DNA of 64,000 nt from Daucus carota subsp. sativus (taxonomy: Eukaryota; Streptophyta; Magnoliopsida; Apiales; Apiaceae): positions 31,174,527-31,238,526 of the forward strand of contig NC_030384.2 of the NCBI RefSeq assembly GCF_001625215.2, given 5' to 3'. This document shows, piece after piece, positions 15,901-56,865 of this stretch. Under the pieces are notes generated by a model. It was not told the DNA's origin. It saw only the letters and a list, made by a program, of their open reading frames with translations, and did not search any database. Positions within the stretch are counted from its first letter, which is position 1. Each line of letters opens with the position of its first letter. Made by a program: the position numbers and the translations under genes.

Positions 15901-18900
15901 TACTGGTAGATTAGTTGGAGCCTATCACCAGATATTGAGTATTATATTGCTCGTAACTGAATGCACTATTATATAACTTCTGATGCACTTTTAGGGGATT
16001 TCCAGTGCATGCAGTTTGAGTCCCCAGCCTAAGCTGGCTTCGTGGGAGACACAGTAAGAAATTTGGTTATCTGATATACCAAATGTTCTTTATTTAATCT
16101 TTATCCCAATAAGTATCTAATTCATGACATTGGATCAGAATTGATTCATAGTGAAGGTGACACTCGAAATTCTGTAAAGTTTAATTTGTATAAACACAAC
16201 ATGATAAGTATTTTTGATGAAATCCAAATACATGAGAATTCAGTACATGTTACATATTTAGTGATTATATCGGTCTTTTAACTAATATATATATAGGCAA
16301 ATGATCAAATATAAACAACTTAAATGGAAACTAAATAGAAATCAAAAGAAACCCTTACCCCATTAGACGACATCACCCACCCTCTTTATTTCATCACCCA
16401 CACAAGGCCTACCCCTGGCCCCACTCAATCGTCCGCAGTCTTGGTGTTGGTGAGGCTCTAGTGGGCCCAGGATGGATTGAGTGGGGCCGGGGGTGGGCTC
16501 TAGGTGGGTGATATTATATAGTAGGGGATAGGTGATGTCATATAGGGGTGTTTTTGTTGGTTTGTATTTAGTTCCTATATGAGTTGTTTCTAATTGATCG
16601 TTTGCATTTATATGTATGTATGTGTACACACACACACATATAGGGTCCTACTCAATAAAAACTAAATACAAATCAACGAGATTAAGTAGAATGGTAGGGG
16701 TTTTGGGACCGGGGATGGACCCCGTCACCCCGAGATGGGCCTAGACGGGGTCTAAGTGGGTCCTAATAGGGTCGGGGCGGGGCCTAGTGGGACCATGGTA
16801 GGGCCAAGTTTTGGTTCTTAAGGCTGTCTGAAGCCTGTCCAGGGCCTGTGCGGAGCCTTGGCGAAGCCCTAGCGGATCCGGGGTGGATTGAGTGGATGCG
16901 AGGGTGGGCCCTAGGTGGGTGATGACATATAGGAGGTGGGTGATGTCATTCAGTTATAGTTTCTCTTGGTTTGTATTTTAGTTTTTATTTAGTGGTTTGT
17001 ATTTGAGCAATTGCCTATATATATGGGGTAACACTCCATAGAATACCATGTTATATAGATTTTCGTAGCATGCCATTATAAAAATATATATAAACATATA
17101 TTTATCATTTTTTTATGAAATATAGGTACAACTTTTGATTAGTAAATCAAAAAACGAAATTATACAACTTTTTTGTTCTAAGAATCACCGAAAATTATGC
17201 ATATTCCAACATTATTATCCAATAAAATAATAGTTATCCGGAAATATTCCACGGAAGAACCAGTTTCAAAAATCAATTTTTTAAGTTTTATGGGGAACTC
17301 CTTAATTGGAGCACTTTTTAGGGTTAAATAGAGTAAATGACAAAGTGGTGGCCGTAGTTTTCCAAATTTTACAAAATGTTGGCTGTAGTTCAAAAACTAC
17401 ATATCGGTGGCTGGAGTTCACTTCCGCGTTTTAATAAGATGGCTGCCGTCAAGGTCCGTTAAATTTCCTCCGTTAAGTCCAAAAAAAAATAAAAAGGCAA
17501 GGGTAAAATAGTAAAATCACCCCAAAAGTCTTCCACCCATCTCTAATCACAAACCAAACCACTCCATCTTCTCTGATCTCAAAACCCTCTTAGAAATCAA
17601 TGGCAAATCGAACGAAAACAAGCCCTCAACACGTCACAACCACCCCTACCAGAGCCTCAACACCTCAATTCACAAGCTTTATGAGCTACCCACTCCGCCT
17701 GAATATCATCTTGCGAAGAAGCCGGGGATTGGCGAAAATTCCGGCGAGGAAACCCGAGCAACCGTCTCCGAATCGGTTTCGGATCGTACCCGGGAGAGAC
17801 AAACTCCCAGATGAAGCCGCCGTTCAACACCGTTGACTTCCCTGTTTTTCTCACATATGGCATCTTTCTTAAAACAGACAATAACTCACCTTTCTTTAAT
17901 GAATATAGGCTTGCGTGGGTGAGAATTTATTTGTTATGGAAAATTGGAAGATTATAGAGATATAAAATAGGGACGGCAAAAGGGGAAAGCGCGTGACTGC
18001 GTGAGGGAGTGGTTGTTTACTGTGTACACAACACCTCCTGATCGTTGTTTACCCATAACCCGTTTTACCCTTTTCTTTAATTATTTTTTTCGACTTAACG
18101 GTAAAATTTAACGGACGTTGACGGCAGCCATCTTATTAAAAGACGGAGGTAAAGTCTAACCACCAATCTATAGTTTTTGAACTCCAGCCAATATTTTGTA
18201 AAATTTGAGAAACTACGGCCACCACTTTGTCATTTACTCGGTTAAATATCAAGTAGGTGACTACTGCGTCCAAAAAAATTCAAGTAGATCATGCATTGCA
18301 AATTTGACTGAAATGTATCATTCATTTGAAAAATTTTATCAAAAATATCACTCTATCGTTAGGCGAAATTCTTAAAGTATTATATATTGAGTTTCGCACA
18401 TTTTTATGAATGATATTACATCCAAATGAAAGATTCTTAGTTCTAGTATTTTAGATAAAATTGGTTAGATTTTTAAAATTTTATTAACTATATATTTATA
18501 ATTTTTTTATTTTTTCTTATTTGATTTAAATAAGAAGAAATAGTAGATTAATTTCTAAAAATCTGAAAATATTATCTAAAATACTAGAACTCAAGATCTT
18601 TCATTTGGATCATACTTGTTAAGGCGTAAAGGCGAGGCTAGACGATAGTCCACCGCCTAACTGCCTAGGCGGTTAGGCGAGCGCCTAGGCGGTAATTAGA
18701 CGGATTATACGTTTAATAATATATTGATTATATTTTTTATATACATATATTTATATGTTATAATAAAATAGCATAGATTAACTATAATTAAATACCAAAA
18801 GTAAATATTATATAAAGTTAAGAGGAACAGGTCTAAAACATACAAATCTAGTAATTTCTACAAGAAAACTATGATAAACTAGATGATAAAATCATCAAGA

Positions 18901-21900
18901 AAAGGTTGTTCTTCATTTCCGGGTCGACTTTGAGTTGCACTCGGTATTTCCCCGTAATCATCATCAATATCTTCGTCATCATTTTCATTTGACAATATGT
19001 CATTGTCCTGGACTTCTTCTTCACTTTCAAAATCGTGCAAGTGAAAAGTACGTGAAGTGTGCGCACGAGAAGAACCTGCACCATTACGATGTCGATTATA
19101 TGTTAAAATCTCCCTGGTGTTTGTATTAGTTTCGCCACCTTTATCACGATTTCTATTACGAAGATTACGCACTGCACTTGCCGGACCAGCAGCTATAACA
19201 ACATGTTCCCATAGCAGATCTTCTCCAGGATGAACAGAATCACCATCTGCATTATTTACCCATTCACCACTCCAGTTAAAGTCTTCGAGCGCAATTGGAT
19301 CGAACTTATCTCCAAGCTCACGGCGCTTTTGGAATCGCTCTGCAATCTTTTCATTGTACTGGATATACACGAGATCATTCAGCCTCTTATGTTCCAAGCG
19401 ATTTCTTCTTTTAGTGTGAATCTATACAATATGCAAGGAAATAAAATGGTATAAATCGTAAATCTCCAACTGGTGCTAAGCAACTAATTTCTAAAATGTA
19501 AAATGAATGTTCTTACAAACTCAAAGGTGCTCCAATTTCGCTCACAGCCTAATGAAGAGCAGCAAAGGCCAACAATCCGTTTCGCTATCATTGCTAGGTC
19601 AGGTGCGGGACCCCCAAAAGCACTCCACCAGTCAACTAACATATTCGATATATAAAAAATTAAGTGACCTGCTCATAGTTATATTAAATGGAATACTGAA
19701 GTACTAGGTTTACTTACGAGGACTCTTCGTTTTTCTTTGATCAATTGCCATTTGTCTTGCAAAGTTCTCTCTCGTATGCTCGTAGTTATCACTTTGGTTA
19801 CTTAGCAAATTCCTAGTCTCAATATCAGGCACCATCTTCTCCAAAACATCATTGAAATCTTCCCGGAGTTTGCAAGCACTACGATAGTCTTTCTCTTGTA
19901 TGTCAAAGAACTTTCCAGGATTTAACAAACAAACCAGCAGCATGTATTTGAACCCCCATCTGCGTATCCCAGCGTTTCTCAATGATGTCAATAACAAATT
20001 TGCAAAGTGATGCATTGTTTTCAAAAGAATCTTTGATAGTTTTCTTGGCATGTTCCATAGCAACAACAAGTTCTGGCATTGCTGGTTGTTCATCAGCATC
20101 GACTACTCTCAAGGCAACAAGAAGCGGTTGTGCAGTCCTGATACAATTTGCAATATTATTCCATAGTGCAGTTGACATAATCAAGTCATAAACCTGTTTT
20201 CCAGCCTCTGTTTTAGCCAAACTTGACCTGCTCCAGTCCTCACTTACAAAGAGCTACCTCAATGCATCTTGGAATTTGAATAAACACTGCAGTGTGAGAA
20301 AAGATGTGGCAAATCTAGTCACTCCAGGTCTCACAAGTTCTCTGCCTCCTGTTTTAACCTTCATTGCATTATGAAGACGACCATGCCTATAAATAAATGT
20401 TGTTATCCTTTTTGCGTTCTTGATTGTGGCATCAAATACTTTGTAGCTACCGACATCCTCCAACATCAAATCTATGCAGTGAGCAGCGCAAGGAGTCCAG
20501 AACATTGGTGGGAATCTTTCCGTTGTTAGTAATTGACCTGCCTTCTTGTAGTTAGCACCATTATCAGTTACGATTTGAACCACATACTCCTTTCCAATCT
20601 CTTCAATTTTGGCTTGTAACAAGTCTGCCAACATCAAATGATCGTGTGACTCACTCGAAGCATCCATGGAACCCATAAAAAATGTTCCATCTGGGCTATT
20701 TGCAAGGAAATTAATCAGGTGCCTGCCTCTTCTATCTGTCCATCCATCTGACATGAGGGTACATCCATATTTTTTCCAAGCACTTTCATGTTTCAATCGT
20801 AGCTGGTCAGTTTGTTTCTTCACCTTTTCAAGCAAAGGGACTCTTAGTTGGTGATAAGATGGAGGAACTAAACCAGGTCTATATTGGCCCACTGACTCAA
20901 TCATCACTTCATAATGTCTCGAGTTTGCAGCATTAAACGGTATTCCACATGCGTAGAAGAACTTTGCAATGTGTATATGCACCCTTTCCTTTTCTTCAGG
21001 TGTCCTCCGAATATTGTCCAAAGTAGTTTGTTTTAAATCCTTGCGATGCCTATCCTGAACAACTTCTTCAGGAGTCTTCCTTAAGATAGATGCAATGGTT
21101 TTTGTAGGCTTTGGAGGTGGAGCTTGAGGTTTTGCAAACTCATAGAGAGTTCCTGCTCTTTTTCTTTTTGCAGAAGTCCCAGAACTTGGAACGGGAAAAA
21201 ATGCAGAGGCGCCGGTTGATTGAGTAGTATGGCCTGATATCTCTTGAACCTCGTCACTGCCTTCATCACCCTAGTCATCTAACATGACAGGTTGTTTCCT
21301 TTTCTTGCTTATCAACGCTTCTTGCATTTCTCTCCTGATTTCAGTTGTTGCATTCGGACACTTGCTTATATCGGCATAATTACCAGTCAAGTGTTGCTTG
21401 AGTCTATTGATCCCCTGTTTTACTTGTTTTCCACAAAGAATACATTCAATACAGCCTTTCACTTCTGGATCAGGCCAATATCCATACTTCCATCCGGGAT
21501 CAATTGACTTAGCCTTATGTTTAGGATCAGTTTTGGGATCAATTACTTCATTACTCTTTCCGGATTCAGCCATTACAAACACTATCAAAAATAGACATGC
21601 TTTATGTGTTATATATACAAGTGTATGATATGTATATAATTATGTGTTATAAATGTATACTTATGTACACACATATATGTTTCTACATACATATCTCATA
21701 AATATAATACATATATATACACAGGTATATACATATATATATCTATATATATGTAAGAGAACAAGGAAAAAAAGAATAGTGTGTGTGTGTAAGAGAAAAG
21801 AAGAAGAATCAAAGAAGAATTAAAGAAGAAAGAATACCTGATTGATTAATTTCTATCCAGTAGTCTCGTGTTTCTCTCTCTAGTTCGTTGAAAATTAGGG

Positions 21901-24490
21901 TTATGACGGCTGCTGTTATAACATATAAGTTATAAGATACACGTGTTGGGCTGGGCCTGGATAATTGGGCTGGACCGGGCCAAAAATTATTTGGGCTGGA
22001 CCGGGTCAGAAACTAAGACGAATTAGACGAGAAAAGGCGAGAAAGGCGTCGTCTTATCCGCCTAGGCGGCCCTGGGCGTCGCCTACCCACTAAAAATCAA
22101 GACGGGTCGGACGCCTTCACATTTTTTACCGCCTTGCCGCCTAGGCGACGCCTAGGCGACGCCTAGGCGACGTCTTAACAACTATGATTTGGATGTAATA
22201 CCATTCATAAAAAATGTGTGAAACTCATTATATAATACTTTAAGAATTTCGACTGACGATAGAGTGATATTTTTGATAAAAAATTTCATATGATTGACTC
22301 ATTGGAGTCAAATTTGCAATGAGTGACCTACTTGAATTTTTTGGACGCAGTCAGTCACCTACTTGATATTTAACCCGAAATTTTTGTAAGGGAACCGATA
22401 GCTATCCAAAGTTATATTTCAAAAGCCGTTTCGTAGAAGAAAACACAGGAAGAAACAAATATCATATTTTTTATTGAAAATACATTGGTTCTGTAAGTTA
22501 AAGCCCAAAAATGAGAAAAAAAATCATGCATTTACAAAAAAATTGTGACAAACTCCTTACAGAATGCGTGCATGTTATGTACAGAACATAGTAGTTCTAT
22601 AATGCGTGTTCTATAAAATTTATGACATTATTCATCAAGTTTTAATGTATTATGCAAATAAAAAGGTAATTACTAGATTGCGTTGTGTAATGATGCAGAA
22701 AATAGTGGAAAAATATTTATATAACACGTAAATGTGAGGTACAAAACATACTAGTTATCCTGGGAGCTACTTTCTCATTTGAGCCTCACTATATATACAT
22801 GCATGCATGCATGCATACATACAGACTTACATATATATATATATAGGGTCTTGCTCCAGTACAAACTCCTTACTGTACAAACGTACAAACCAGTGATTAT
22901 GACAATAATATTTAGTGATTAGCAGATTTTAATTTAACAAATACATACATACATCCATCACCATCGCCACCACAATCACCTCCAATCACCACCACCACGC
23001 ACGACCACCCCACCCACCACAACCACCACCACCACTACCAACCACCATCCACCACCAACCACCACTGCCCAACACCTCTCTCTCTCTCTCTTACCCACCA
23101 CCACCAACCACCACCACCACCACTACCAGTGGCTCTCTCTCTGTGGTTGTTCGCTCACCGATTAGTGCTATACACACACAAACACACACATTCACCACTT
23201 CTTTTCTCATCTCCCTCAATCGTGTTTCTAGCACTGCCCTCGCACCGGCGTCGCGGCTGCCGCCGGCCGCGCTGCACCACCACTCGGCTATGCCGCCCCA
23301 TAAGTGCTCCCCTCCCCTTATCTCTCCATCAGACCCCCTTGGTGGATTTAGTGATTCTGTTCAATCATTTAGTGATTCTTTTCAAGTCATTTAGTGATTG
23401 TTTGTACGTTTGTACACTAAGGAGTTTGTATTTGAGCACTTGCCTATATATATATATGGTGCTACTCTACTACAAACCTCTCTTAGAATAAAAACTAACA
23501 CCAAAATAAAAAACTTATAAATCACATCGAAATATATCAAATATGGTATGGAAACTGATTGTTGGGAGATTAAGAAAAATACGGTGAAGTCGGATTTCGA
23601 AAAAAGTTAAACGATTGACAGGAAAAATTAATTTAAAAATGGAGGGATTCCGTGGAATCATGTATAAGATGGTACAGGTTTATTGTGTGTGGTGAATTCT
23701 AGGGGGACATTAGATTAGATTGATCCAATGGCTTAAATTAGTTTGTAGTTTGTATTTTACTTTTGGTTTGTATTTGATCACTAGCCTATATATATATATA
23801 TATAGGCTAATGATCAAATAGAAACCAATTTTAAAATAAAAACTAGAAACCAATACAAGTTAGTGATATTCTCAGTACAATTTAGTGATTATCTCTTTAG
23901 GATTTAGTGATCTGTGCTGCAGAATTTAGTGAAAACTCAATCTCCAGATATTAACCAGCTTAGAATCTCCAGATCTGTTCATGTTTTCGATTCAGATGGT
24001 GGTGATAGTGGTGGAGATGGTGGAGGTGAAGGTGGAGATGGAGGAAAGATGATTGTAGCGGAGGTTTGGGCGGCTTGAAGTAGGGGGTTGGAGCGTTGCC
24101 GGAATAGTGGCGGCTCCGCCTTTGAAGTTGAGTCGAGGTGGAGAAAGAAGTATGAACGAATCTGAAGGAGGTTGAAGCGGCGATTAAGATGGGCCTGGTG
24201 AAGATGGAGGTGTGGAGGTTGTGTTGTTAAAGAAATAATGGAGGTGGAGGTGGAGATGGAGGTGGTGGTTATGGAGGGGGTGGGCGGCATAGAGGTGGTA
24301 GTGGTTATGAAGAGGCGACGACGGAGGTGGTGGTAGTGGAGGTGGGGTTGGTGAAGATGGAGGTGGGTTTGATGAAGATGGAGGTGGAGATGGGGTTGTT
24401 TAAAAATTTAGTGGTATTTGCTTTAGGATTTAGTGATATTTCAGTTTGGTTTTTAGTTTCTAGGATAAGGAGGTTTCTATTGGAGTAAAA

Positions 24491-24542
<52 letters not shown>

Positions 24543-53500: not shown

Positions 53501-56500
53501 TACAAGTTGAATAGATCAGTCAATGGTAATTTTAGTAACAGATCAACAAGCTAAAATATGTTTTTATGTAGAAGAGCCCAATAGTTAATTCGGCCTATAG
53601 CAAATTAATTAATTAATTAGTAAAGCCGGAGTCAATATCTTTCGAACTCCCATTCTAGTCAGGGATTATCTACTTCCAGATGATATTAGAAGATAAACTA
53701 GACAATATCACTTAAAAGTTATAAGTTATAGACAATATCATTTCTAACAAATACTATAAAACTGTGCACAATAATGGAAACCTTGAACATCTAAACAGAG
53801 TTTGGCAATTGAAATTCAGCTTAGCGATCACAAATGAATTTTCTTTTAACGAATGTGCACTTTTCTACTTGAATGTCAGAGCCAGCATAGTTTTAGCGCC
53901 CCTACTTTTATGAAACACAAAGAAGCCCTGATTTTGGTCAAATATCAGATTGTTCATCGAAGTGGAGACCAAATATCACTTTGTTCACCAATTTCAACAG
54001 ACTATATTTCATTCACTTAAGTTGATATAGATATCAATTTTGCAAGTTCTGAATTAAAAACTGAGTAAAAATAAACTTAAAATTATTAAAATTTGAAAAA
54101 AATAACGGAGAACCAAATCATAGATAAAGTTTTGTTTCTCGGATGTATCGTGCAAAAAAAAAAATCTAGAGTTTTTCTATATTTGATATTTTTTAAAATT
54201 ATATCAATCATAATATTTAAAACAAATAGTAAATACATTTATTTAAATCTAAAAATATAATCTGAGATGCTAGAATTCGCAACTTTTCATTTGGTTGTGG
54301 TAGCATACAAAAAAATGCAGAGAACTCGATAAAATACTAGTTTTACTTCCTGAACACATATTTGGATGCACATGTTGATATTTATTATGACTTTAAAAAT
54401 TCAAATGATACCCAATTGAGATCGACGAACAAATTTATATCTGGTCTTCACTTTAGTGACCAATTTGATATTTAACCTCTTGATTTTGTCCCATCAATGC
54501 TTAATTTAGATCAGTAATCAGCAATAAACATGATATCTAAAATACAAGTACATGAATATATGGTTTTTAAATATAAGACAAGAGAACACAACTAACACCT
54601 CAAACATATATCTAAAATATGCCAAGCACGTACCTCAAACATAAGTTTGTATTTTCCATCCCTGTTCCTCATTCTAAGATATGACTGGCATGCTTCAGGA
54701 TCCTCACCAGGTGGTAAAAGATATATATCATACGTTTCCTCGGTACGTTCTTTGTACTCGTCAGATATAACTTCTTTAATTTTATCTTCAGTCACTGCCT
54801 TTGTTGACTAGAATAACAAACAGCAATGACTCAGTGGCAAGATGTAGTGCAGGAAGTAGTAGAAAGAATCTACCTGATATAACTAAGATATTTTGACAAT
54901 ATGTGAAAATAATATAACCTTCAATATATATGTAGGATTCTGAAAACCAGAAAAAGGGTTGAACTTGTTGATGATTTTTATATGTGCTGTCTGTAGATCC
55001 GGCTCTATAAAAGCTTTGTACATGGGATATACCTGTGAAAAAGAATGTTAAGGAATAAAACTAAAAATATGTAATCTATAAGTAAATAACAAAAAAGGTA
55101 TATAACTTGACGATACATAAAACTAAATATACAAAATTAATAATCTAAACAGATATAATAAAAAAAAAACCGTTTCTGAAATCTGATGAATTATCTCTTC
55201 AGGCTCTTGTCCAGCGCGTTGAATGTCTCTGAAAACCCGTTTCACAAGGTCAAAGTGTACTCCACCAGTAACAGAAACACGGAGATCCAGAAAAGGCCGA
55301 AGTTTGTCACTCAAGGCATATATACCTTCAACGACAACAATGCGGGAGCTAGGGACTTCAATTGTCCTGTTATATGTTATATGATGAGGTTGGTGATGAT
55401 AAAAAAAAATAATTCAACACCATTATATATTTATATATTGAAACTTTTATACATATGGACTTTTAGATTTAAAAACAGGATTGTATAATAATTTTTTTTT
55501 TGTGTGTGTGTGTAGAGAGAGAGAGAGATGGTGCTCATTTTATTTTAATAACTTTATATACTTTTATTTTGTTTATTGAACATAACTAGACTGTACTGCA
55601 TGTGCAATTTATGGCACTTCAGTATATATGCGACCAACAGTATACAACACAAAGTACATTTAGCTTTTTCCCCATAATAAAAGCCGATATAAGTTTAGAA
55701 GGGAAATCAACCCCTACTTTCTTTTTTTATTCATTATTTCTAATTTTTTTTCTACTAATTGAGTGGCAGAGCCTCAGAAGAGTGTAAACTACCTTGAGGC
55801 CCCAATAACCACTAATTCTACCCATGGAAGATAGAGTAGTAAGTTGCTAAATTGAAAGGAGAGACTATCAACCTGTATCCTACACGAGAGCTAGATTTAA
55901 AATCATATATAGGAGCTTGAACAGGATTCCCTTCTTGCAGACCACGGATATTTTGTAGTAAAGTATCATAATCAGTCAGGCGTGGATCTGCCAAAGGCCC
56001 AAAACAAAGACATCCATCAATATTTGACAAAGATCATCTACATTTTGACTATATTTAATCAAATAATTAGGTTTTGAAGTAATAGAATGTAAGCAGCCAT
56101 AAAGGTGTTTGACAGTGCAGACAAAAAAACAGTATCAGCATAGGTAAGATCACGTCACGTTTTATCATTACTCTTGGCAACAATTGAGGACAGATACCTT
56201 TTTCAAAAAATCACAGGTATGATGGATGATATTAATTAGAGATCGCGTCAACTGAAAAGTAGATACAGATGGAATCATGACTCATTTGAATATATTTTTG
56301 AGACAATATTTATTTAACAAGCAGTGCTGTCAAGAAGACGCACATTGTCACATTCTACCGCTAGGAACAGATTTACTTGTCCCCTTAAACAATTAAAATC
56401 GCCATCTTGCCCATTTACTCTCACTCATATGAACATTAGAGTTCTACACACACACACACACTCACACAGGCAAATGATCAAATAGAAACCAAGAAAAAAC

Positions 56501-56865
56501 CCCTATGACATAACCCACCACCTTATTTGACATCACTCGCCCCTAATATGACATCATCCATCTTAGGCCCATCCCCAGTCCCACTAAATCCACCTTGAGC
56601 TCACTAGAGCCTCACCAAGACTTCCAACACGCCTCTGACAATCTCCGGACAGGCCCAAGAGCCCCCACTAGGCCCCACCCACTACTCTCACCCCAGCATT
56701 ACTGGCCTCACCAAGGCCCACCTCAAGGTTTATCACCGGGTCCCACAACCCTTCCCACTGCATTTATTTCTATTTGGTTTCTATTTAACTGGTTTTTATT
56801 GGAGTAGAACCATATATGTGTGTGTGTCTGTATATGTATATATATATATACACATGTATATGTTT

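Follow-up and report, generated by a model that had tools for sequence, protein, structure and literature searches.

Small microsatellite-associated elements of the carrot genome: probable non-autonomous Mutator-type transposons with one common pair of ends

Several kinds of small plant element that reside in microsatellites have been described. SaTar elements are known from guayule, rice, sorghum and citrus, and Micron of rice, a small element in (TA)n which appears as rSaTar2 in the same report, was itself assigned there to the Mutator-type elements (MULEs) (PMC5907723). MuTAnT was described in Medicago (PMC4486113) and Ac-mMITE in pineapple (PMC8449440), while carrot itself harbors MiMs, miniature inverted-repeat transposable elements within TA stretches whose kin were sought among Mutator transposases and whose mode of movement was called unclear (PMC8227079). 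We analyzed a stretch of 64,000 nt from Daucus carota subsp. sativus (GCF_001625215.2, contig NC_030384.2, positions 31,174,527-31,238,526, forward strand), referred to as a whole as the window, in which an initial annotation had noticed six small elements, A to F, and had rightly cited rice Micron as their precedent. With a probability of roughly 0.85, A-F are non-autonomous Mutator-type elements of the microsatellite-targeting (SaTar/MiM) kind. They are placed in the Mutator class because 9-10-bp non-dinucleotide target duplications, within the 8-11 bp of MULEs, are present in a minority of copies, and they are filed with the published microsatellite MULEs because duplication length, inverted and mostly GG-starting ends, TA preference, non-nested chains, slippage and interiors of A-F in which no coding was found all match.

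The two end sequences, termed R (GGCAAATGATCAAATAGAAAC) and L (GGGTCCTACTCCAATARAAAC and variants), were searched for throughout the host genome (441,086,747 bp in 11 contigs), as the initial annotation had proposed. With up to 2 mismatches the R end was found at 914 places versus 0 for the reversed control, and the L end at 987 places versus 24, confirming that the small-element family is real. Individual examination covered 70 loci, taken in order from the top of a list of 100 of the 914 R places (0-1 mismatch, mostly contigs 1-3), a sample in which well-kept R ends are favored. By script, 59 of these 70 loci had an L partner in inverted orientation, element F itself being one of them (L004); the remaining 11 were excluded from the 59, and in three of these (L003, L020 and L040) an L-type end was present by eye. 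A delimiting pass over 69 loci and the window gave 78 copies including A, C, D, E and F, B being missed by the script and read by eye. The script returned 74 copies as L/R, 3 as L/L and 1 as R/R; on reading, the three L/L copies were L/R, and an L end is thus paired with an R end in 77 of the 78, the exception being A (R/R). Two different end types had been claimed from the window and these are real, the outer ~14 bases of L and R being different, but the inner bases are common to both as imperfect mutual inverted repeats and the ends are therefore not unrelated. Terminal inverted repeats are accordingly present but imperfect, as in C, where an inner repeat of 39 bp at 92% lies at the same distance from either end, and in A, which is palindromic throughout. 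Majority strings of the two large length classes start GGCAAGTGATCAAATAGAAACTA / GGGGCTTACTCCACTAGAAACTA and GGCTAATGATCAAATAGAAACC / GAGTTTTACTCCAATAGAAACC.

This is a large family in which subfamilies are set by the interior and one pair of ends is held in common. Clustering produced a group of 32 (median 575 bp), a group of 21 (median 689 bp) and groups of 5 holding D and B, the rest being single; the input comprised the delimited copies plus B-E by hand, and C, D and E, thus entered twice, make the affected group sizes one too high. Copy lengths fell at 236-411, 543-600, 641-736 and 898-1211 bp. With respect to coding content at one of these loci, L057 has a Plant mobile domain (PMD) open frame at 27-1193, ~0.75 kb from an L end.

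The initial annotation had also proposed testing whether the flank is always a microsatellite. Dinucleotide tracts of 8 bp or longer lay on both sides in 44 of the 59 paired loci, whereas 7 had one on one side and 8 on neither. Copies in non-repetitive DNA with a target duplication, which had been named as evidence against the proposed family, do occur in a minority: exact 9-10-bp non-dinucleotide duplications were present in 4/59 (L041, TATATTTTGT; L044, ATAATAAATT; L050 and L070, each 9 as scored and 10 by eye) versus 0 of 3,422 swapped flank pairs, and three of the four (L041, L044 and L070) have no tract of 8 bp or more on either side. In 41/59 loci there were dinucleotide matches only across the element, and such matches decide nothing. 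The R junctions are of one phase, 61 of 82 distinct R ends lying directly after TATATATA, none after ATATATAT and 21 after other sequence; the phases of C/G-bounded (TA)11 tracts genome-wide are near equal (7,150 and 7,447, the latter in the reversed control). Near a contig end (C1, 3784-33290), (TA)11 starts occur mostly every ~1.7-2.6 kb, like a subtelomeric tandem array.

Runs seeded from the terminal bases were observed as well. (CT)n runs lie between the element and the TA tract at CTC-finishing L ends (L011, L029, L031 and L062), L040 and L020 have a CA run between the L end and the TA tract, and a G run is present at the GG of the L043 R end. Slippage appears to account for the L-end runs of CT and CA. 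Growth at microsatellites, which the initial annotation had suggested, does occur in the form of these seeded runs, although the GA/TC form of such growth had already been published for pineapple (PMC8449440).

The six elements of the window and their adjoining tracts are as follows.

16296..16606, no strand: element A, 311 bp, R-type end on both sides, the whole element an imperfect foldback
16607..16643, no strand: A-B spacer, TATATGTATG/TG/CA microsatellite
16644..17015, + strand: element B, 372 bp, L to R, GC-rich interior in common with A and F
17016..17024, no strand: TA tract right of B
22831..22845, no strand: TA tract left of C
22846..23444, + strand: element C, 599 bp, L to R, interior CCA-rich
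23445..23457, no strand: C-D joining TA tract, 12-13 bp
23458..23786, + strand: element D, 329 bp, L to R, grouping with copies in L043, L044 and L067
23787..23804, no strand: D-E joining tract (TA)9, 18 bp
23805..24493, - strand: element E, 689 bp, R then L, interior GGTGGA-rich
24494..24540, no strand: (TA)23 tract right of E
56469..56811, - strand: element F, 343 bp, R then L, interior in common with A and B

The chains reported earlier were confirmed, C, D and E being joined by the two TA tracts and A being separated from B by the TG/CA stretch. There were 14 neighboring pairs at most 100 bp apart, and no nested arrangement was seen among 222 recognised ends of 69 loci and the window, only the L/R-end family of A-F being looked for. 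It had been stated that the elements begin or end exactly where a tract stops. This holds for A-left, B-right and both ends of C, D and E, that is for 8 of the 12 ends, which adjoin perfect dinucleotide tracts at least 8 bp long; the rest are approximate, the tract lying 4-7 bp off at B-left (limit taken as 16643 in this distance test and 16644 elsewhere), F-left and F-right, while A-right adjoins an irregular TATATGTATGTATGTG stretch only. Eleven of 12 ends lay within 8 bp of a dinucleotide tract against a random mean of 0.09 and maximum of 5 (20,000 placements of the six lengths), a generous null given that the six elements were chosen for their tracts. The counts across the genome provide a better test.

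With respect to interiors, sequence common to A, B and F matches at 68-78% over 104-161 bp. Element A matches its own inverse at 65% over 312 positions with foldback arms of 68 nt (79%), and E agrees with the ~690-bp subfamily in length and in the type of its R end. TTAGTGAT/ATCACTAA words occur four times in C and four times in E and are absent from A, B, D and F. The Pfam scan of interiors covered a single long frame from each of C and E, and neither gave a match.

SaTar elements and the carrot family are both small and non-coding with imperfect inverted repeats, are mostly flanked by microsatellites and form linear, non-nested chains, and a minority with 9-10-bp duplications is found in several SaTar families as in carrot (PMC5907723). 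In contrast, autonomous relatives are known for SaTar and none was found for the carrot family in the search described below, ~30% of SaTar elements are linked while the 14 close pairs of carrot were counted within one family, and the fixed L and R types of the carrot outer ends are a point not found in the available text of PMC5907723. That text likewise lists no duplication-bearing members for Micron, whereas the carrot family has four. MuTAnT resembles the carrot family in its insertion into TA microsatellites, its G-rich tips with a varying number of G and the minority of copies outside perfect TA tracts (14/218 in Medicago) (PMC4486113). It is unlike it in having 9-nt duplications and, in an element of 292 bp, inverted repeats of 144 bp (mean 47 bp), as compared with 9-10 bp and imperfect repeats in carrot, and in having a Jittery-like autonomous element, AutoMuTAnT, no such partner being found here (PMC4486113). 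Ac-mMITE shares TA flanks, clusters, a minority of 9/10-bp duplications and terminal-base-seeded runs (GA/TC in pineapple), and no autonomous element was found for it or, within the search described below, for the carrot family; two families exist in pineapple, while in carrot many interiors lie under one end pair (PMC8449440). The family also resembles the carrot MiMs in residing in TA stretches (PMC8227079). A distinct mechanistic kind, which the initial annotation had considered on the basis of asymmetric ends, chaining and triplet-rich interiors, is weakened by these results, as the 9-10-bp duplications make the family Mutator-type and the interiors define subfamilies.

We infer a transposase acting in trans, together with an order of insertion and of growth. 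A MULE transposase would bind the imperfect inverted terminal region, excise the element and insert it by a 9-10-bp staggered cut, with TA-rich or (TA)n sites preferred. The TA tracts and the terminal CTC/GG bases would then be extended or altered by slippage to give (TA)n, (CT)n, (CA)n or runs of G, and TA target remaining on both sides would let later elements land alongside, giving chains without nesting. With its many copies in a 441-Mb genome, the family illustrates how mini-transposons and microsatellites shape each other, many interiors being carried by one end pair. Some copies lie outside microsatellites, and how the elements find or make TA tracts becomes testable across accessions. 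A caution follows for marker work, in that TA-rich marker tracts in this genome can be transposon edges.

Several observations weigh against a Mutator-type assignment. The duplications come from four copies, all within AT-rich DNA; 5 of the 8 tract-less copies among the 59 had no duplication, and for A, B and F no duplication of 10 bp was clear, the best candidates matching at 8, 8 and 5 positions of 10. No empty allele was seen in the single assembly examined. The phase at the L end was mixed, 103 matches, some of them R ends also picked up by the scan, comprising 55 after TATATATA, 13 after ATATATAT and 35 with neither within 9 bases. An autonomous element with L/R ends was not found among the 150 of 813 PF10551 candidates scored, the comparison being made by eye against the listed end places only (~100/987 L and 100/914 R). 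In addition, F has a CA tract to its left (56445-56461) and AT then TG to its right, the TG tract (56817-56832) being an inverted copy of the CA tract. CA/TG flanks were also inverted around L020 and more weakly around L003 and L007, and direct around L033. Inverted flanks are not expected from one insertion into a uniform CA tract. That such inversion is the rule, as F had suggested, was not retained, there being 5 usable cases only, 4 inverted (2 weak) and 1 direct.

These inverted flanks, at odds with direct duplication, would fit the model of PMC5907723, in which circular intermediates with microsatellite filler recombine homologously, the flanking microsatellite travelling with the element and pairing elsewhere; copied flanks would likewise give a constant R-end phase. 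Locus L059 points the same way. There, copia coding sequence breaks at base 2421 and leads directly into TA-rich DNA of ~80 bp and an R end, while the same copia sequence in two other copies has no TA tract. Of the 40 listed matches to this copia region (2374-2530; 1,314 candidates, 99-100% identity), 39 stop at the junction base. No L end was found within 2.5 kb, however, the right half of the copia sequence was not found nearby and only 48 bp of its left part matched; L059 may be a rearrangement and was dropped as proof of an empty site. As slippage accounts for the CA/CT runs that separate the L end from the TA tract, and exact non-dinucleotide duplications in four copies argue against recombination, we consider this model unlikely.

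A separate family that carries its microsatellites within the element, creating and not targeting them, would explain the runs seeded from terminal bases, and 6 of the 8 window tracts of (TA)6 or longer touch C-F or sit within 55 bp of them. We regard it as quite improbable, since three copies with clean duplications lack any 8-bp tract on either side, and since exact L ends occur only at 251 or more of the 7,150 C/G-bounded (TA)11 starts genome-wide, a lower bound counting L ends alone with no mismatch allowed. The consistently different outer ends could also suggest Helitron2/Helentron-like rolling-circle elements, which have asymmetric ends, and literature, as far as available, names Helentrons alongside microsatellites. 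This is very improbable in light of the 9-10-bp duplications, the equidistant inner repeat of C and the R/R foldback A. Helitrons have TC...CTRR ends and are not known to make target duplications; no such ends were seen by eye, and a Helitron reading of A-F was rejected in view of the duplications.

Returning to the Mutator-type reading, the pairing of L with R over unrelated interiors was not seen to be stressed in the reports on kindred elements, no literature search aimed at this pairing having been made. A microsatellite-targeting MULE lineage with two functionally different ends, almost exclusive L/R pairing and one-phase R junctions is a tentative and rather doubtful extension. If true, R/R foldbacks such as A would be rare or dead, and the transposition complex would be oriented, the L side being the one that slips and grows.

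In the search for a partner, two MULE matches (C3 and C4) were rejected as autonomous elements. An exact L end occurs 3-6 kb upstream of each, but it belongs to an ordinary copy of ~580 bp that has a TA tract and an R end of its own, which makes the MULE match a neighbor of that copy. Reading by eye of the interiors of the unpaired R loci L006, L014 and L021, with no profile search, revealed no MULE. Beside MULE matches, L071 holds an AMP-binding (acyl-CoA synthetase-like) gene fragment duplicated in inverted form (302-2401) and L073 holds adjoining Ulp1 protease (Peptidase_C48) frames (2-870).

Within the window, A-E lie in what appears to be a single intron of ~9.5 kb, at about 15.5-25.0 kb, in a gene for an AMP-binding enzyme, F lying outside at 56.5 kb. 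Peptides from three exon pieces (15290 to ~15.5 kb, from 25018 and from 25254) were joined and gave one unbroken AMP-binding profile match (profile positions 175-357). The continuous match supports the placement of A-E in one intron, as the initial annotation had it, with exon edges approximate. Pfam itself gives only AMP-binding, and we take the host gene to resemble a plant acyl-activating enzyme (AAE17/18). The same intron contains a hAT-like transposon at 18250-22370, with zf-BED and DUF659 domains in separate frames and similar end sequences bounding it in inverted orientation. A further element with inverted ends (AGTAAATGACAAAGTGGTGGCCGTAGTTT), seen by eye at 17330-18260, lies a few hundred bases past B, and a presumably Stowaway-like CTCCCTCCGTCCC end follows the (TA)23 tract right of E.

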